Source of the DNA: Gammaproteobacteria bacterium
Lineage (GTDB): Bacteria > Pseudomonadota > Gammaproteobacteria > UBA6429 > Thiohalophilaceae
Reading direction: 5' to 3'
DNA length: 64,000 nt
Assembly: GCA_016194635.1 (NCBI GenBank)
Contig: JACQBC010000026.1
Coordinates: 62,001-126,000, forward strand
Shown: positions 2 to 8,266 of the stretch, piece after piece
How the letters are laid out: every line of letters starts with the position of its first letter
Numbering within the stretch: the first letter of the stretch is position 1
Translations under genes and position numbers: made by a program
Notes under the pieces: model-generated
The model's database searches: none
What the model was told of the DNA's origin: nothing
What the model saw: the letters and a program-made list of their open reading frames with translations, nothing else

Positions 2-883
2 AACCTGATCCAAGGCAACAATGCCGGCGCCGGTATGGGTGCCGGTATTGCACTGCATTACATCAACGGTACGGATGCTGCTCGTGCTTTCGGTCAATGG
101 TGGAACATTGACATCATTAATAACATGATCGTCAATAACGTGGCCGGTTACACCGGTGGTGGTATTAGCCTGCAGGACGCCCTCAAGGTACGCCTAATTA
201 ACAACACGATTGCGCGCAATGAGAGCACGGCGACCTCGGGTAATACCTTCTGCAATACCCTAGTGGTTCCAGCCGTGTGTGACCCGAACACCTCCACGCC
301 ATACGCGGCCGGGGTTGTGTCCTTTAAACATGCCCAAGCCTTCGTATTGGGTGGTAATGCCAATCAAAGGGCACGCTACGGGGTGTTCTCTAACCCGACC
401 ATGATCAATAACATCCTCTGGGAAAATCGTATGTCGCACTTTGCCATCGACAATACGATTGATCCACCCACCTATGGCCTGTTTACGGATGCGGTGGGTG
501 GTGTGGGTGTTGATACACGGGTGTATGGCACGCCTGGGGTATTGGCCGGTCCGGGTACCGATTCATCCAACAACCTCTACACCGGTGCCAATGTGAACTT
601 TGTCTTACCGTATTTCAATGCGAATCCGGGTGAGACGATCAATCAGAACGAGTTCACCACCACCATCCAGGCCAATCCGGCCTTTGATGAAGGCGGCAAC
701 TTTATCAACGTTCGCTACGGTCCGCTGTACATGTACGGTGACTACCATCTGCAAGCCGGTAGTGCGGCGATCAACACGGGTAACAATGCCGTATTAGGCG
801 AGTATCCCGCGACAAGCTTGGATTTCGACGGCCAAATCCGTCCACGTAATCTGCTTGTGGATGTCGGTGCGGATGAGTTCTAA
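2..883 (+). CDS. Right-handed beta-helix / choice-of-anchor protein, 5'-truncated
   Basis: The reading frame is open from base 2, so the N-terminus lies outside the window; 293 residues are visible. The visible part is rich in short Asn/Ile/Gly turns typical of right-handed parallel beta-helix repeats (for example MINNILWEN and VRLINNTIARN). It ends in GSAAINTGNN, then FDGQIRPR and VDVGADEF, the usual C-terminal signature of choice-of-anchor-Q/beta-helix exported proteins. Such proteins are normally secreted or on the cell surface; no catalytic motif is visible. It precedes three cupredoxin-family genes on the same strand, and a strong hairpin separates it from the next gene. Its role next to the copper proteins is unknown; a scaffold or matrix role is only a guess. 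Confidence 0.75.
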   Translation, partial: NLIQGNNAGAGMGAGIALHYINGTDAARAFGQWWNIDIINNMIVNNVAGYTGGGISLQDALKVRLINNTIARNESTATSGNTFCNTLVVPAVCDPNTSTPYAAGVVSFKHAQAFVLGGNANQRARYGVFSNPTMINNILWENRMSHFAIDNTIDPPTYGLFTDAVGGVGVDTRVYGTPGVLAGPGTDSSNNLYTGANVNFVLPYFNANPGETINQNEFTTTIQANPAFDEGGNFINVRYGPLYMYGDYHLQAGSAAINTGNNAVLGEYPATSLDFDGQIRPRNLLVDVGADEF

Positions 884-895
884 ACCAGCGTGACT

Positions 896-920
896 CCCTG
901 GACCCACGGTGGGTCCAGGG
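896..920 (+). terminator. Perfect 10-bp stem-loop without U-tract
   Basis: CCCTGGACCC (896-905) pairs perfectly with GGGTCCAGGG (911-920) around a 5-nt loop. It starts 12 bases after the stop of the beta-helix gene and ends just before the ribosome binding site of the next gene. No run of T follows, so it may slow or process the transcript rather than act as a classical intrinsic terminator. Confidence 0.45.
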
Positions 921-938
921 CCAACGGGAGGAAATGTT

Positions 939-2156
939 ATGCAAACTAAATTTTTAGCCACAATTCCGGCGGCCATCCTCGGCGCGCTGCTTGGAGTCTC
1001 TAACAATGTTAACGCTGCGGCGTTTGTGCAGTGTCCAAATGACGCGAATAACGACGCGGTGCCCGAAGTACCCGGTAATTTCACCTGCATGCATTTAAGT
1101 GGCGGTGATGGTTTTATCAAAATGGCCGATGGCCGGGTGTTATACAACTTTGGTTTTTCCAACCTGACGGGTATTCCAGAAGCTAACGCGATTGGAGCTG
1201 GAATTCTGGCGGCCGCATCACCTGCACCTACGATTGAATTGGACGAGGGTAAAGATTTCTACTTGACCCTGACCAACGTGGGTATGATTATGCGCCCAGA
1301 TTTGTTTGACCCACACTCGGTACACTTCCATGGTTTTGCCAATGCCAGCAGTATATTTGACGGCGTACCCGACGGCAGTATTTCAATCAATCCCGGCGCG
1401 AGTTTGACCTATTACTACAACATCGCGCGCCCTGGCACCTATATGTATCACTGTCACGTGGAAGCCGCTGAGCATATGCAAATGGGCATGTTAGGTAATC
1501 TGTACGTGCATCCCGCTCAAGACGTGAGTGGTTTTGGCGGCAATCCCGCCACTGTCGCGCGTCGTGCGGGCAACACAGATCCCGCCGCACCGCTGGGATA
1601 TACCTATAACGATGGTGATGGCAGTTCCGCGTTTGATGTGGAATATCCGTTGCAAATTGGTTCGTTCGACCATGTCTTCCACGAGAAACACATTGCCGTA
1701 CAACCCCTGCCGTTCGCGGAAATGAAGGACACTTATCCGATCTTAAACGGCCGCGGCTATCCCGATACCGTGGATCCCAATCCGCTGGTACCGCCGGCTG
1801 AAAATGGCGGTATTCCTTCGCAAGTTGTCAGTGCGTTGATCACGGCCAGCGCGGGTCAGAAGATCTTATTACGCATCTCCAACCTTAACGTGACGCGCTT
1901 TTACACCTTGGCGACCACCGGCTTGACGATGAAAGTGATCGGCACGGGTGCGGAATTATTACGCGGCCCGGACGGTAAGAATCTTTTCTACAACACCAAT
2001 TCCGTAACCCTGGGTGGTGGTGAAGCCAAAGATGTGATTATCGATACCACCGGTATCGCACCCGGTACCTATTTCTTGTACACCTCTAACCTAAATTATC
2101 TCAGCAATAACGACGAGGATTTCGGCGGCATGATGACCGAAATTCGCATCAACTAA
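939..2156 (+). CDS. Multicopper oxidase-like protein A (ligands kept in domain 1 only)
   Basis: A 405-residue exported protein with two cupredoxin-like domains. ATG 939 follows GGGAGG and begins a signal peptide ending near VNAAA at residue 28. Domain 1 has HxxHxH (H126, H129, H131) and YHCHVEAAEHMQMGM (H171, C172, H173, H179, M184), giving one type 1 copper site plus four trinuclear-type histidines. The spacing after HCH is five residues to the next His, not the usual three. The second domain (about 230-405) keeps the fold pattern but has YTSN where the neighbour B has WHSH, so its copper ligands are gone. B follows after 25 bases and C after that, so the three are probably co-transcribed. 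Family membership is clear; substrate is unknown. It could also be a simple blue copper electron carrier. Confidence 0.85.
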   Translation: MQTKFLATIPAAILGALLGVSNNVNAAAFVQCPNDANNDAVPEVPGNFTCMHLSGGDGFIKMADGRVLYNFGFSNLTGIPEANAIGAGILAAASPAPTIELDEGKDFYLTLTNVGMIMRPDLFDPHSVHFHGFANASSIFDGVPDGSISINPGASLTYYYNIARPGTYMYHCHVEAAEHMQMGMLGNLYVHPAQDVSGFGGNPATVARRAGNTDPAAPLGYTYNDGDGSSAFDVEYPLQIGSFDHVFHEKHIAVQPLPFAEMKDTYPILNGRGYPDTVDPNPLVPPAENGGIPSQVVSALITASAGQKILLRISNLNVTRFYTLATTGLTMKVIGTGAELLRGPDGKNLFYNTNSVTLGGGEAKDVIIDTTGIAPGTYFLYTSNLNYLSNNDEDFGGMMTEIRIN

Positions 2157-2181
2157 TGGCTGCGCTAACAGGAGCACAATC

Positions 2182-3522
2182 ATGAACAGTATTAAGATTA
2201 TCAAGAAATGTTGGGCGGGATTGATCCTGTCCATCATGCTGGGCTCGGCGGTGGTAGCACAAGCGCAGGTCCTGGGTACTACTGGTACGACTTTTAATTT
2301 AACCGCACAACCCGGTTATATCTACACGCCGGACGGTAGTGCCTTGTTAGTCTGGGGGTATGCGCTTAATGGTGGCCAGATGTCTTATCCCGGTCCAACC
2401 TTAATCGTCAATCAAGGTGATACGATTACGATCAGCCTGGCAAGCCAATTGACCCAGGCCGATGGTATTACACCGGTTCCAGTCTCCATGATCTTCCCCG
2501 GACAAGAAGCCGTGTCCGCAACTGGCGGCACCGCAGGTGTATTCACCCAAGAGAGCACGGGTGCGGCGGATACGGTGACCTACACCTTTACCGCCAGCAA
2601 TGCCGGGACTTATTACTATCAAAGCGGTACCAACATGGAGCTGCAAACCGAGATGGGATTATTCGGTGCCATCGTGGTACGGCCACCCGTGGCCAAACAA
2701 GCGTATAACCATGCCGCGACCCGCTACGATTATGAGTATCTGTTGGTGCTGTCGGAAATGGACCCCAAGGTGCATGACGCCGTTGATGCCGGTTTAACCG
2801 CCACCATCGATAATACCACCTACGCACCGGTGTACTGGTTTATCAACGGTCGTAACGGCCCGGACACCATGAGTGACGCCAACGTGCCGTGGATGCCGAA
2901 CCAACCTTATAACGCCTTGCCGCGGGTCACCCCCGGCAAGACCGCCTTGGTGCGCTTCATCAACATGAGTCGCGATATGCATCCTTTCCATACCCATGGC
3001 AACGACTTTTTGCAAATTGCGCGTGATGGTCATTTGTTGGAAAGTATTAGCGGTGCAGGCCCTGATCTGGGCGTAAAAGATTACACCTTGTCTTCTGTTC
3101 CGGGCGCGACCTTTGACGTGTTGTGGGCTTGGACCGGTGAAAAACTCGGTTGGGATGTGTTTGGTACCAATGCCCAACTCGCGGCAACGGATCATATGTA
3201 TAACCATCAATGCAACGGTTTAGATGTCGCATCCCCAGGATTCGATCCGGTTACCAAGGAGTATTGCCCGGATCACGGCAAGCCACTGCCCGTTACCCTA
3301 CCGGGTCTACAAGATCTCACCTTCGGCGGTTTCTATAGCGGCAGCCCCTTCCTCGGATCGTTTGGCTCTTTACCACCAGGTGAAGGTGGACTGAACTTGA
3401 ACGCAGGCATGTTCTATATGTGGCACTCACATACCGAACGCGAAATTACCAACAACGATATTTATCCAGGCGGCATGCTCACCATGATGATTGTTGAGCC
3501 ACCTTGGGTAACCATTCCGTAA
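2182..3522 (+). CDS. Multicopper oxidase-like protein B (ligands kept in domain 2 only)
   Basis: A 446-residue exported protein; ATG 2182 follows AGGAG and the signal peptide ends near VVAQAQ (residue 29). It is a paralogue of A. In domain 1 the ligand loop reads YQSGTNMELQTEMGLFG, the same length as the A loop, but with Q147, S148, G149 and Q155 in place of His-Cys-His and His. In domain 2 HPFHTHG (H267, H270, H272) and MWHSHTE (H415, H417) are intact, with Ser416 where a type 1 site would have Cys. It therefore has four trinuclear-type histidines and no type 1 copper site. A roughly 140-residue stretch with three cysteines separates the two His motifs. Co-expression with A would supply one complete set of copper ligands. 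Substrate is unknown. Confidence 0.85.
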   Translation: MNSIKIIKKCWAGLILSIMLGSAVVAQAQVLGTTGTTFNLTAQPGYIYTPDGSALLVWGYALNGGQMSYPGPTLIVNQGDTITISLASQLTQADGITPVPVSMIFPGQEAVSATGGTAGVFTQESTGAADTVTYTFTASNAGTYYYQSGTNMELQTEMGLFGAIVVRPPVAKQAYNHAATRYDYEYLLVLSEMDPKVHDAVDAGLTATIDNTTYAPVYWFINGRNGPDTMSDANVPWMPNQPYNALPRVTPGKTALVRFINMSRDMHPFHTHGNDFLQIARDGHLLESISGAGPDLGVKDYTLSSVPGATFDVLWAWTGEKLGWDVFGTNAQLAATDHMYNHQCNGLDVASPGFDPVTKEYCPDHGKPLPVTLPGLQDLTFGGFYSGSPFLGSFGSLPPGEGGLNLNAGMFYMWHSHTEREITNNDIYPGGMLTMMIVEPPWVTIP

Positions 3523-3540: not shown

Positions 3541-5436
3541 ATGAAACAGCAACGTAAAATAATCACGGTATTTACACGCAGTGTGATCGCCACCGCTTTA
3601 TTGACTGCACTGGGTCAAGCAAATGCGGTGACCTATAACTTGTGTACTGGAACCACCACCAAGACCATGCCCGATGGCACCGTCGTAACCCTGTGGGGGT
3701 ATGGGGACGATAGCGTCGCGGGTTGTCCGGTCAGCGTGCCGGGTCCGCAGTTAACGATTCCTGTGGGTGACCCGAGTTTAACCATCAACTTGCGTAATAC
3801 GTTAAGTGAAGCGGCCTCGGTGATCGTACCGGGGTTAACTTCGCCAACAGCCCCCGCGCCGGTATTTTTTACCGATGCGCAGGGACGGCAACGGGCGCGC
3901 TCGTTAGTGGCCGAAGCCGCCGCTAACGGTGGTATCCAGAGCTACACCTATAACGCACGGCCGGGTACATTCTTGTATCAAAGCGGCAGCCATCCGGCGG
4001 TGACCGTGCAAATGGGATTATACGGTGCCGTTACCGGCGATACCCTTCTGGGTGAAGTCTATCCTGGGGTGCTCTATGACAACGAAGTGGTGTTGGTGTA
4101 TAGCGAGATCGATCCTGCTTTACACACCGCCGTAGCTGCCGGTACGTATGGAACGGTAGCTTATCCCAGTACCTTGAATTTCGCGCCGAAGTATTATTTG
4201 GTGAACGGTGCTCCCTATGCGACCGGAGCGGCGGATTTAACCGCGGGCGCGGTGGGTCAACGTACCTTATTACGTTTACTCAACGCCGGTATCGAAAGCC
4301 ATTTTCCAACCTTGGTCGGTTCAAGTGTTGCATTGGTGGCCGAATATGGAAATCCCTACCCCTATGCACGTAACCAGTTTTCAACCATGTTAGCGGCCGG
4401 GATGACCCAAGATGCGATTCTGGAGCCCAAGGCCGAAGGGCGTTTGGCTTTATTTGATCGGCATCTGCGTATCACCAACAACACTATGCCAGGCGCAGGT
4501 GGTTTAATCAGCTTCCTTGCAATTGGTGCGGGTACGGGGGGTGGTCCAACCAATACGGCTCCTGTTGCGGTGAATGACGCGTCAACCACGGCCGAAGATA
4601 CCGCCGTGATCATAGATGTCGCTATCAATGACACCGATGTGGACGCTAATTTGAATCCGTTGTCGGCGGCGGTGCAGGCGCAACCGCTGCATGGTGTGGT
4701 AGTAAAGAATGCCGATGGAACCGTGACCTACACACCAACCTCGAATTACAACGGCGTTGATAGCTTCACCTATAACATCCGTGATGCCCTCAATCTGGCG
4801 TCCAATACCGCTACCGTTGCAGTAACCGTTACACCGGTAAATGATGCACCGGTTGCCGCGAGCGAGGCCTATACCATGACTGGCGGTAGCACCTTAAACG
4901 TAGCGGCTCCAGGCGTATTGTCGAACGATACCGACATCGACGGTCCTGCCTTATCCGCGGTGTTACAAACCACCGCGGCCAATGGCGCGTTAACCTTAAA
5001 TGCGGACGGTTCGTTTAGCTTTACACCGAGCGTTGGGTTTGCCGGAACCAGCAGCTTTACCTATGCGGCCAATGACAGCTTCCTCACTAGCAATGTGGCA
5101 ACCGTGACCATTACGGTAAAAGCACCGGTCAATGTTGCGCCGGTGGCCAAAGACGACGCGGGATCGGTACGACGTAACAGCCGCACCACCAATCCGAAAA
5201 ATACGGTGATCGTCAATGTCATCGGCAACGACACGGATGCCGACGGTACCATCGCACCTGCAACGGTAGCCGTGCAAACGGCCCCGAAGAAGGGTACCGT
5301 GGTCGTCAATGCCAATGGCACGGTGACTTATACACCGAGCGACGGTAAATCAGGGGCCGACACCTTCAGTTACCGCGTGCGCGATAATGCCGGTGCCTTG
5401 TCCAATACCGCGACGGTGCGTATCAATATCTTGTAA
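3541..5436 (+). CDS. Multicopper oxidase-like protein C, ligand-less, with Ig-like tail
   Basis: A 631-residue exported protein; ATG 3541 follows GGGAGAG and the signal peptide ends near GQANA (residue 29). Residues 30-330 match B in layout (VPGPQLTIPVGD, GTFLYQSGS, VQMGLYGAV, LRITNN), but neither domain keeps copper-binding histidines: the HPFHTHG site of B aligns with SHFPTLVG and the HSH site is lost. Residues 339-432, 433-526 and 532-631 are three Ig/cadherin-like repeats of the tandem-95 type, each with NDTD near the start and TYTP or SFTP in the middle. The last repeat closely resembles the end of the protease at 6002-8266. The protein is probably structural, an adaptor or anchor for A and B. 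This role is inferred from ligand loss and the added repeats. Confidence 0.8.
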   Translation: MKQQRKIITVFTRSVIATALLTALGQANAVTYNLCTGTTTKTMPDGTVVTLWGYGDDSVAGCPVSVPGPQLTIPVGDPSLTINLRNTLSEAASVIVPGLTSPTAPAPVFFTDAQGRQRARSLVAEAAANGGIQSYTYNARPGTFLYQSGSHPAVTVQMGLYGAVTGDTLLGEVYPGVLYDNEVVLVYSEIDPALHTAVAAGTYGTVAYPSTLNFAPKYYLVNGAPYATGAADLTAGAVGQRTLLRLLNAGIESHFPTLVGSSVALVAEYGNPYPYARNQFSTMLAAGMTQDAILEPKAEGRLALFDRHLRITNNTMPGAGGLISFLAIGAGTGGGPTNTAPVAVNDASTTAEDTAVIIDVAINDTDVDANLNPLSAAVQAQPLHGVVVKNADGTVTYTPTSNYNGVDSFTYNIRDALNLASNTATVAVTVTPVNDAPVAASEAYTMTGGSTLNVAAPGVLSNDTDIDGPALSAVLQTTAANGALTLNADGSFSFTPSVGFAGTSSFTYAANDSFLTSNVATVTITVKAPVNVAPVAKDDAGSVRRNSRTTNPKNTVIVNVIGNDTDADGTIAPATVAVQTAPKKGTVVVNANGTVTYTPSDGKSGADTFSYRVRDNAGALSNTATVRINIL

Positions 5437-5547: not shown

Positions 5548-5979
5548 ATGTTGAAAGTCGGATCTGCCCTTGGCCTAGTATTGTTGCTCAGTGCCTGCGC
5601 GACGGTCTCCACGGACAATCCGCAAGACGCCGCATTTACCAAACAATTTGAGGACCAGTGGGGCGTGAAATTTTTATCCTTACGTCCTTCCGCGGAAGGT
5701 TATTTGTTGGATCTCCGTTACCGGGTGATTAACGCGGAAAAAGCCGCGCCCTTATTGGATCGCAGTATTAAACCGTATTTGATTGCGGAAAAAGATAACA
5801 GCAAGTTGTTTGTTCCAGTATCGCCTAAATTGGGCGCATTACGCACTAATACCAAATTCGTGAAAGAAAATCGCAATTACTTCATGTTCTTTGCCAACCC
5901 CGGCAAACACATCAACCGTGGCGATACGGTGACGATCGTGGTGGGGGATTACAAAGCAGAACATGTGGTGGTTAATTAA
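5548..5979 (+). CDS. Small lipoprotein of unknown function
   Basis: A 143-residue protein starting at ATG 5548, with a short lipoprotein signal ending in a lipobox, LLLSAC, with lipidation Cys at residue 17. The mature part is charged and includes FLSLRPSAEGYLLDLRYRV and YKAEHVVVN at the end, suggesting a small beta-sandwich domain. I do not recognise the family. It lies between the three-gene copper cluster and the secreted protease, all on the same strand, so it may belong to the same surface-protein group. Outer membrane or inner-membrane anchoring cannot be decided: the residue after Cys is Ala, which by the usual rule favours the outer membrane. Confidence 0.75.
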   Translation: MLKVGSALGLVLLLSACATVSTDNPQDAAFTKQFEDQWGVKFLSLRPSAEGYLLDLRYRVINAEKAAPLLDRSIKPYLIAEKDNSKLFVPVSPKLGALRTNTKFVKENRNYFMFFANPGKHINRGDTVTIVVGDYKAEHVVVN

Positions 5980-6001
5980 TTCTTGGGAGTGGCATTTAAT
6001 C

Positions 6002-8266
6002 ATGAAATCCGTATTTAGAAGCACTGGCATCCTGGTTGGAATGGCGATCATGCTTGAATCGCAAGCAGGTTCGATTGATCCTGAGTTAGCCTCGCTGCTA
6101 GCACAAAGCCGACCGGATGAAACCGTCGCGGTGATCATCGATTTTTCCAATAAATATTCGATGCAATCGCAGTCGCATAAACGCCGTGATGCCAAACACC
6201 GTGAGGCGGTGTTGCGTGGACTGCGCGGCCATGCCGAAACCGAACAGGGCGAAATCAAAAATCTTCTGAAGCAACAACGCATCACCCAACATAAACAATT
6301 GTGGCTGAACAATGCCTTGGCGGTAGAAGTGCCCGCCAAACTTGTTAAAGAACTTGCCGCCGCGCGCCGCGTCTCGAGTGTGCGGCTGGATAAGAAAATT
6401 AACATCCAGGCAGCCTTGGCCGGTAGCCCTGCAGCCGCGGAATGGAATATCAGTGCGCTACATGCCGACACACTTTGGACTGCTGGCTATACAGGCCAAG
6501 GCGTGGTGGTGGGTTCGATGGATACCGGGGTTGATTATCAACATCCGGATCTGTCCGCGCGCTGGCGCGGTGGTAGTAATAGCTGGTTTGACCCGTACGG
6601 ACAACATGCCTTACCGCATGATGTCGATGGACACGGTACCCAATCCACCAGTCTGATCGTGGGCGGAGATGCAGGGGGTACCTCGATAGGTGTTGCCCCG
6701 GGTGCGCAATGGATCGCCGCCAAAATATTTAATGACGCGGGCGTGGCGAGTTTAAGTGCGATCCACGCAGGCTTCCAGTGGATGCTCGATCCGGATAACA
6801 ATCCCGCCACCGATGATAGTGCCGATATTGTCAACAACTCCTGGGATTTGACCAGCGCGGTGAATCTATGTGATGCGGAATTTCAGGCCGATATTAATAC
6901 CTTGCGCGCCGCGGGTGTGGCCGTCGTCTTCGCAGCGGGTAATACCGGTTCAGCGGTCTCCACGAGCATGAGTCCGGCTAATAATGCCGGTGCCTTAGCC
7001 GTTGGCGCGGTGGATACAACGTTGAACGTCGCTTATTTTAGCAGCCGCGGTCCCTCGGCCTGTAACGGCAATATCTATCCGCAACTGGTAGCGCCTGGCA
7101 TGGATGTGCTGGCGGCGGATTTGACCTTTGGGGGTGTCGTACCCAATTCGTATTACTATGTCAGTGGCACATCGTTTTCGGCCCCGCATGTCGCGGGGGC
7201 GTTGGCCTTATTACAGAGTGCATTTCCCGCCAGTTCACTGCAAGACCGGGAAACCGCGCTGCAACAAACCGCGGTTGATTTAGACACGGCGGGCGCCGAT
7301 AACGCCACCGGGTATGGTCTGGCCGATGTGGCCGCAGCCTATAATCAACTGGCGGGTACCACTCCGCCACCACCTGCGAGTAATTCCCCGCCGGTGGCAG
7401 TGGCGGATAGTGCAAGCACCAATGAAGATAATACGGTCGTGATTAGCCTGGTTGCAAATGATACGGACGCGGACGGTGATTTAGTTGCAACTTCGGTAAT
7501 CCTGGCCAGTACCCCCACCCATGGCAGTGCCGGGGTGAATGTGGATGGTAGTGTTAGCTATACCCCTAGCGCGAATTATTCCGGCGCGGACAGTTTCAGC
7601 TACCGTGTCAGCGATCTTGCCGGTAATAGCTCGAATCCCGCCACGGTTTCGATCACGGTAAGCCCCGTTAATGATGCCCCCGTGGCGGGCAACGATGCCT
7701 ACAGTGTGGTGGGTGGCACTACACTCAGCGTCGCGGCCGCTGGGGTGCTGAGTAATGACACGGATATTGATAGCGCTGGTTTGTCCGCAATAGTGTCCAC
7801 CGCGCCCAACCAGGGATCACTGACTTTAAACACTAACGGTTCTTTCAGTTATATCCCCTCGGTGGGTTATGTCGGCACGGATAGTTTTAGCTATGTTGCC
7901 AGCGATGGTGTCACCAGTAGCAATCCCGCGACGGTTACGATAACGGTGACCGCACCACCTGTTGCTAACAAAACCCCTGTTGCCAATCCCGACAGCGCCA
8001 GCGTCAAAAAGAATACACGTACGACGGCCTATAACGTTACGATCACCGTGCTTGCCAATGATACCGATGCGGACGGCACGCTCAATCCGGCGAGCGTGAA
8101 AATAACCAGGACACCTAGCAAAGGCACGCTAGTGGTGAACGCCGATGGCACGGTCAAGTACACGCCAGCGGCGGGTAAGTCAGGTTCTGATTCGTTTACG
8201 TATACCGTGAAAGATAATGTCGGCGCGGTATCAAACAAAGCCAGCGTTTCAATCAGCATTCTATAA
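6002..8266 (+). CDS. Subtilisin-family (S8) serine protease with three Ig-like repeats
   Basis: A 754-residue secreted protease. ATG 6002 was chosen because GGGAG lies upstream and a signal peptide follows; an upstream in-frame ATG at 5963 overlaps the previous gene. Residues 35-135 look like an inhibitory propeptide. The catalytic triad is visible: D174 in VGSMDTGVD, H211 in DVDGHGTQ, S391 in SGTSFSAPHVAG, with oxyanion Asn314 in AAGNTG. After a short Pro-rich linker (TTPPPP, about 453), three tandem-95/Ig-like repeats run 463-553, 554-650 and 655-754. The last one matches the C-terminus of protein C in motif order (KKNTRTT, NDTDADGTL, VVNADGT, SGSDSFTY, VSISIL). It may process the neighbouring surface proteins, or simply share their attachment module; both are inference. 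Confidence 0.92.
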   Translation: MKSVFRSTGILVGMAIMLESQAGSIDPELASLLAQSRPDETVAVIIDFSNKYSMQSQSHKRRDAKHREAVLRGLRGHAETEQGEIKNLLKQQRITQHKQLWLNNALAVEVPAKLVKELAAARRVSSVRLDKKINIQAALAGSPAAAEWNISALHADTLWTAGYTGQGVVVGSMDTGVDYQHPDLSARWRGGSNSWFDPYGQHALPHDVDGHGTQSTSLIVGGDAGGTSIGVAPGAQWIAAKIFNDAGVASLSAIHAGFQWMLDPDNNPATDDSADIVNNSWDLTSAVNLCDAEFQADINTLRAAGVAVVFAAGNTGSAVSTSMSPANNAGALAVGAVDTTLNVAYFSSRGPSACNGNIYPQLVAPGMDVLAADLTFGGVVPNSYYYVSGTSFSAPHVAGALALLQSAFPASSLQDRETALQQTAVDLDTAGADNATGYGLADVAAAYNQLAGTTPPPPASNSPPVAVADSASTNEDNTVVISLVANDTDADGDLVATSVILASTPTHGSAGVNVDGSVSYTPSANYSGADSFSYRVSDLAGNSSNPATVSITVSPVNDAPVAGNDAYSVVGGTTLSVAAAGVLSNDTDIDSAGLSAIVSTAPNQGSLTLNTNGSFSYIPSVGYVGTDSFSYVASDGVTSSNPATVTITVTAPPVANKTPVANPDSASVKKNTRTTAYNVTITVLANDTDADGTLNPASVKITRTPSKGTLVVNADGTVKYTPAAGKSGSDSFTYTVKDNVGAVSNKASVSISIL

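Follow-up and report, generated by a model that had tools for sequence, protein, structure and literature searches.

The window analysed here (the whole stretch of DNA, 64,000 nucleotides long) contains three consecutive genes, A, B and C, that, according to the analysis of ORFs and Pfam domains, encode secreted proteins with two cupredoxin domains each (Table 1). The question raised by this locus is whether A and B, each of which holds only half of the ligands of a multicopper oxidase copper site, are two separate proteins, remnants of oxidases or parts of one enzyme. A first-pass annotation, made from the sequence alone, had proposed that A and B are paralogs with reciprocal losses of copper ligands that together form one split oxidase, with the active site at the subunit interface. 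Gene linkage, structural models, paralogous pairs, the pattern of export signals and domain fusions all support this proposal. A and B are very likely (with a probability of about 0.87) subunits of one heteromeric multicopper oxidase with a single site at their interface; copper binding and O2 reduction by this complex are inferred, in the absence of biochemistry.

Table 1. Features of the A-B-C locus and their positions in the window (T1, type-1 copper site; TNC, trinuclear cluster)
Feature	Positions	Strand	Properties
Scaffold gene, 3' end	2..883	+	giant beta-helix protein with SdrD_B, fn3_3 and choice-of-anchor Q; 1673 aa in total, start upstream of the window
Protein A	939..2156	+	405 aa; Sec-type signal peptide; two cupredoxin domains
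Domains of A	939..2156	+	by ligands, T1 copper and one TNC half in domain 1, no copper in domain 2
A loop 1, H126-x-x-H129-x-H131	1314..1331	+	H126 T1; H129, H131 TNC; conserved in 80/80
A loop 2, H171-C172-H173...H179...M184	1449..1490	+	conserved in 80-81/81
A domain-2 loop YTSN	2079..2090	+	site of lost HxH; His absent in 83/83
Protein B	2182..3522	+	446 aa; Sec-type signal peptide; two cupredoxin domains
Domains of B	2182..3522	+	by ligands, domain 1 is copper-free, domain 2 is the other TNC half
B domain-1 loop YQSG	2617..2628	+	site of lost HxH
B domain-2 loop 1, H267-P-F-H270-T-H272	2980..2997	+	H270, H272 TNC; conserved in 84/84
B domain-2 loop 2, H415-S416-H417-T-E419-R-E421	3424..3444	+	H415, H417 TNC; without T1 Cys; 84/84
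Protein C	3541..5436	+	631 aa; copper ligands absent from both cupredoxin domains, which are followed by three Big_9/cadherin-like repeats
Small lipoprotein downstream of C	5548..5979	+	conserved, 46 loci

Opposite halves of a copper site in A and B

Numbered from the ATG at position 939, protein A has H126-S-V-H129-F-H131 and H171-C172-H173...H179...M182-G-M184 in domain 1, and the loops of its domain 2 (TRFYTL... and YTSN) are devoid of histidines. Protein B, numbered from the ATG at position 2182, has the domain-1 loops SMIFPG and YQSG and retains H267-P-F-H270-T-H272 and W-H415-S-H417 in domain 2. In A, we take H171 and H173 to be ligands of the trinuclear cluster, and C172, H179 and M184 or M182 to be ligands of the type-1 copper. 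By the standards of the multicopper oxidase family, the ligand set of A makes up one complete type-1 site plus four histidines of the trinuclear cluster, and that of B the other four; neither half is present in C. Both A and B have a pair of cupredoxin domains arranged as in 2dMCO/NirK proteins, as indicated by fold matches and Pfam Cu-oxidase families. The type-1 ligands in the N-terminal domain are confined to A, being absent from B and C, and the four histidine pairs of the trinuclear cluster are not united on one chain, with the domain-1 pairs on A, the domain-2 pairs on B and none on C.

The reciprocal absence of ligands claimed by the first-pass annotation thus held, being read directly from both sequences, and the eight histidines it had numbered (H129, H131, H171 and H173 in A; H270, H272, H415 and H417 in B) are exact. 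Its picture of two paralogs was incomplete because the third one, C, was missed, and the pattern in B need not be one of loss throughout. The cysteine that is missing from domain 2 of B is missing also from an intact type-C two-domain oxidase (L143, with the motif MHDHVE), the domain-2 loops of which closely resemble those of B, but with HDH. Because this intact oxidase lacks the cysteine as well, its absence in B is likely to be ancestral and need not be a loss. The L143 oxidase (85-2094, minus strand), which has an extra C-terminal cupredoxin-like domain, is a useful unsplit comparison for A and B. Four further residues of B are invariant, namely, H365 and, at the place in domain 2 where a type-1 site would be, S416, E419 and E421; it is conceivable that these residues form a different metal site.

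Conservation and linkage of the genes

A scan with the B profile, using one genome per species, yielded 370 relatives, from which 80 loci were kept; with the loci of the window's family added, the set comprises 84 loci. The titles of the 80 loci name Pseudomonadota, delta-proteobacterial groups, Nitrospirota, Acidobacteriota, Planctomycetota, Hydrogenedentes, Myxococcota and others. Throughout this set, the ligands H126, H129, H131, H171, C172, H173, H179 and M184 are invariant in the 80-81 A proteins that could be scored, and so are H267, H270, H272, H415 and H417 in all B proteins (84/84). The count for H415 and H417 is partly so by construction, WHSH being among the patterns used to fetch relatives; the A ligands and the remaining B ligands were absent from the search patterns. 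The missing parts are equally consistent: histidine occurs in loop 2 of A domain 2 in none of the 83 proteins, and loop 2 of B domain 1 usually reads Y[QYH]SG. The first histidine is retained there (YHSG) in about half of the B proteins, the second is never present, and the HxH is complete in none. Because the ligands of both A and B are invariant across the scorable relatives, the pattern is not due to chance.

The linkage of the genes is nearly constant. The order A-B-C on a single strand is observed in 81 of the 84 loci, the three exceptions being two contig ends (L096 and L121) and an artefact of an open frame (L136). The lone homologs that would have spoken against a split oxidase have so far not appeared: wherever enough sequence was present among the 84 loci, no B without its partner was found. 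Among 397 evenly sampled Pseudomonadota genomes, two have A, and exactly these two have B, with the two genes adjacent in both. Protein C is encoded in essentially every ABC locus, in several of them with only ∼330 aa and no extra domain. The genome that contains the window has three further pairs with the same reciprocal ligand pattern: one belongs to a second ABC operon (L011), and the other two (L009 and L010) are of the compact kind described below.

In the loci examined, A, B and C are separate genes rather than parts of a single polypeptide. An apparent natural A-B fusion in L098 (an 844-aa frame) was rejected as spurious, being merely a long open frame of GC-rich DNA, and two proteins considered as B-A fusions (647 aa in Rhizobium and 669 aa in genome G368) turned out to be ordinary oxidases with both halves present. 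At G243:C1:270908-272098, the match to A is in two pieces with a change of frame, a frameshift or a sequencing error, in an otherwise adjacent A-B pair.

These observations bear on the possibility that A and B are decaying copies of an ordinary two-domain oxidase, with the enzymatic function gone. In favor of decay, half of the canonical ligands are lost in each protein. However, the remaining ligands are invariant over many phyla, the losses are complementary and never overlap, the operon is kept in every scorable locus, and the tree described below agrees with one ancient origin. Decay can be dismissed almost entirely.

Predicted structure of the complex

For structural modeling, we used operons with A, B and C in one frame and read them through the stop codons, so that the chains are joined by natural linkers. 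The AlphaFold2 model of the A-B-C read-through from L092 (1160 aa, 74 rows) has a pLDDT of 87 and a pTM of 0.88, with only the two linkers disordered, and that of the A-B read-through from L061 (808 aa, 66 rows) has a pLDDT of 88 and a pTM of 0.88. The three-domain oxidase 6vow was superposed with VIA-align on the A-B-C model over 379 of 409 residues at 2.7 Å (model range 23-828) and on the A-B model over 375 of 409 residues at 2.6 Å (range 22-801). A alone accounts for only ∼270 of the ∼375 superposed residues, so that domain 2 of B must occupy the place of domain 3 of 6vow. Three-domain oxidases hold the trinuclear cluster between domains 1 and 3. Two ring-type interfaces are possible in the two-protein model, and the one that is predicted is the one that would complete the cluster. 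Thus, in both models, from two species, domain 1 of A is predicted to face domain 2 of B, as expected of a split oxidase; the convergence of the eight histidines is itself inferred from the superposition.

In both modeling tests, the chains were joined by the read-through linker and there was no mis-paired control. Furthermore, because AlphaFold2 knows cupredoxin rings, the high pTM is weaker evidence than it would be for a novel fold. The best fold matches of A are 3g5w and 2zwn (Z of ∼30-31, rmsd of 1.6-2.5 Å), and B matches 3wia and 5zl1 (Z of ∼27). For the A-B-C model, the top Foldseek matches by E-value are ceruloplasmin, factor V/VIII and MnxG. The TM-scores to ceruloplasmin are low (0.2-0.3) and the rmsd is large, as expected of a sequence-ordered alignment if the order in the ring differs, which is not positive evidence. 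Ceruloplasmin is absent from the 50 VIA-align rows of either model, and this is no evidence against the likeness.

Compact pairs and export signals

Most of the searched genomes of the window's family have a compact pair; the pairs at L009 and L010 consist of proteins of ∼350-390 aa encoded in the order B-A. About 20 such A3/B3 pairs and five to six A4/B4 pairs in this family show the same complementary split of the ligands: compact A has H-x-x-H-x-H and HCH...H..MG in domain 1, compact B has HxH and MHxH in domain 2, and the opposite halves are without such histidine pairs. Genome scans (E of 1e-30) of 397 species revealed no compact pairs outside the window's family. The compact B3 of L009 (5489-6529) has HCH in domain 2, with the cysteine present, compared with MH[LF]H in most other B3 proteins.

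The export signals of the compact pairs are unevenly distributed. In the A3/B3 pairs (L009, L019-L031 and L050-L057), all 21 B3 proteins start with a Tat signal, RRxF[LM]K, and the 20 A3 proteins have mostly Gly/Met-rich or polar starts without a hydrophobic segment, so that a signal peptide is apparently absent. This absence was judged by a hydropathy scan and by reading, without a dedicated predictor; the sole exception in the scan, the A3 of L055, comes from an over-extended frame in which the extension precedes the likely start. Known hitchhiker subunits are exported by the Tat pathway in the folded state, bound to a signal-bearing partner. By analogy, and as an inference from sequence alone, A3 is likely to be exported as a folded complex with B3. 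Because B3 carries the Tat signal and A3 apparently has none, a physical A-B complex is suggested independently of the models.

With these data, an alternative can be considered whereby A is merely an electron-transfer cupredoxin with a type-1 site and B is a copper chaperone or another metal-binding protein, encoded in the same operon without any shared cluster. In support of this view, the type-1 site of A is complete, SCO1 and NosL are encoded nearby, and the invariant H365, E419 and E421 of B could bind metal. Against it, H129, H131, H171 and H173 of A and H270 and H272 of B are invariant although they have no type-1 role, the halves missing from A and B complement each other exactly in each of three subfamilies, and both models set domain 1 of A against domain 2 of B. 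We consider this alternative highly improbable.

The compact pairs have no C, and this leaves room for another arrangement, in which A and B do share the cluster, as a plain heterodimer or an A3B3-type assembly, and C is only a surface anchor rather than the third member of a ring. Apart from the pairs without C, the A-B model, which already reaches a pTM of 0.88, favors this possibility. Against it, C is encoded in essentially every ABC locus and in several of these has only the ∼330 aa without an extra domain, and the A-B-C model holds its pTM over all three units. This arrangement remains possible; in either case, A and B would form one split oxidase.

Origin of the split

In the maximum likelihood tree of 71 sequences, all A-type proteins form one clade (support of 98/93), and the B-type proteins and C form another one (98/90), in which C is the sister group of B (100/95). 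The split between A and B is thus consistent with a single ancient event that likely predates the separation of the compact and ABC lineages, and C arose later as a copy of B. Before the duplication, the ancestral enzyme was probably a type-C two-domain oxidase with three identical chains and three identical interfaces. Afterwards, the half in domain 1 would have been retained by A and that in domain 2 by B, and in the ABC operons, a further copy of B, having lost both halves, would have become C.

Genomic neighborhood: scaffold, copper delivery and an iron-oxidizer cluster

In most loci, a gene for a giant protein with SdrD_B, fn3_3 and beta-helix domains lies upstream of A. It is a separate gene in some loci, including the window; in others, the scaffold is apparently fused to A (L105, L111, L129 and L137, with a Pfam check in L105) or to C (L047 and L048, with which L139 and L140 are grouped, as well as Cupriavidus and Paraburkholderia). 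The recurring neighbors include genes for SCO1/SenC (16 loci), a cytochrome c protein (18 loci) and NosL (7 loci). This neighborhood agrees with a copper enzyme that is exported and mounted on a scaffold at the surface, an arrangement that we regard as likely, surface display being an inference; the copper-delivery genes and the scaffold fusions count in favor of the split oxidase. The original proposal of a split oxidase can be extended accordingly to a system that includes a non-catalytic paralog, C, and a giant scaffold.

Directly downstream in the window, a subtilase gene (5963-8266) encodes three Big_9 repeats that resemble those of C, and a genome of the same genus (L046) has a gene of similar size at this position. 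The subtilase might be a processing protease or might share anchoring repeats with C. Near two ABC operons (L106:15077-17518 and L087:16840-19335, the latter on the minus strand), there is a CopA-type three-domain oxidase with a C-terminal segment that resembles the CopB outer-membrane barrel.

A comparable cluster has been described in the iron oxidizer Sideroxydans lithotrophicus ES-1, where the expression of Slit_1812-1818 is higher in late magnetite cultures than in late Fe(II)-citrate cultures, with similar clusters reported in Paraburkholderia and Ralstonia (PMC12016527). Like the ABC loci, Slit_1812-1818 includes a row of three cupredoxin genes, of which two encode proteins with oxidase motifs and the third a large protein without them, along with SCO1 and a cytochrome (PMC12016527). 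The neighborhood in the window genome and the Paraburkholderia locus match the published Slit_1816-1818 type of cluster in gene composition, which is not a sequence comparison. Unlike our reading, the published study calls both motif-bearing Slit proteins canonical, and its relevant sections mention no split site (PMC12016527).

Relationship to known oxidases

The closest relatives by structure are the type-C two-domain oxidases, such as the blue copper oxidase of N. europaea (3g5w) and a metagenome laccase (2zwn), which are the best fold matches of A and likewise have the type-1 site in domain 1. In these oxidases, the ligands of the trinuclear cluster come from two protomers (PMC13151041). 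Type-C enzymes are homotrimers with both halves on each chain, whereas here the halves are on different paralogous genes and a third paralog has none. The A-B oxidase is thus type-C-like but not a standard member because no chain carries the full ligand set, and the models together with the co-occurrence of A and B favor a heteromer over a homotrimer. Copper nitrite reductase (NirK) is similar in having two cupredoxin domains and, as a trimer, an active site between subunits. At the position of His129 of A, which is the type-2 position of domain 1, NirK has Asp, and its type-2 copper is single. A NirK-like function was rejected given the histidine at this position (80/80 A proteins) and the eight trinuclear-cluster histidines across A and B.

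Ceruloplasmin, factor V/VIII and MnxG are six-domain proteins and, like A, B and C together, consist of three two-domain units; ceruloplasmin has one trinuclear cluster per six domains and type-1 sites in the even-numbered domains. Unlike these proteins, which are single chains (later cleaved in the factors), the ABC system is encoded by three genes, and the TM-scores are low. The fungal POXA3 is a heterodimeric laccase with two different subunits (PMC3129051). Its large subunit is a complete laccase by itself and the small subunit lacks a cupredoxin half-site, so that, unlike A and B, POXA3 pairs a laccase with another, small protein. A search of the open-access literature for heteromeric or split multicopper oxidases returned nothing but fungal laccases that have an additional small subunit, and no published description of the A/B arrangement with an inactive C was found in the same literature. 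To our knowledge, no multicopper oxidase has a trinuclear cluster built from two different gene products.

Proposed mechanism and implications

In the proposed split oxidase, domain 1 of A would provide one half of the trinuclear cluster along with the type-1 copper, through which electrons would be taken from the substrate. Domain 2 of B would give the remaining four histidines, such that the cluster that reduces O2 to water would form only at the interface between these two domains. C would probably complete a pseudo-threefold heterotrimer with the ring order A-C-B, comparable to the six domains of ceruloplasmin and with one active site instead of three; both the stoichiometry and the ring order are inferred, and the trimer cannot be general because the compact pairs are without C. 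The complex would act outside the cytoplasm, tethered through C and/or A to the giant beta-helix/Ig scaffold.

A bolder reading, for which the balance of the evidence currently falls slightly short, is that ABC constitutes a metallo-oxidase similar to ceruloplasmin, a heterotrimer encoded by three genes that has only one trinuclear site and is placed on a giant cell-surface beta-helix scaffold. It would oxidize extracellular metal or mineral donors, such as Fe(II), and would have been born by division of labor once the subunit of a homotrimeric oxidase had been duplicated. The substrate, in particular, is inferred without any biochemical evidence.

Gene-by-gene annotation calls A and B separate oxidases or misses them. 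Once the split is recognized, the annotation and the expression of such genes change: A or B alone should be inactive. The split oxidase is a testable candidate for the unexplained magnetite-induced cupredoxin cluster of an iron oxidizer. It also offers a clean natural case of the transition from a homo-oligomer to a hetero-oligomer with one surviving active site, a step that has been proposed for ceruloplasmin-type proteins.
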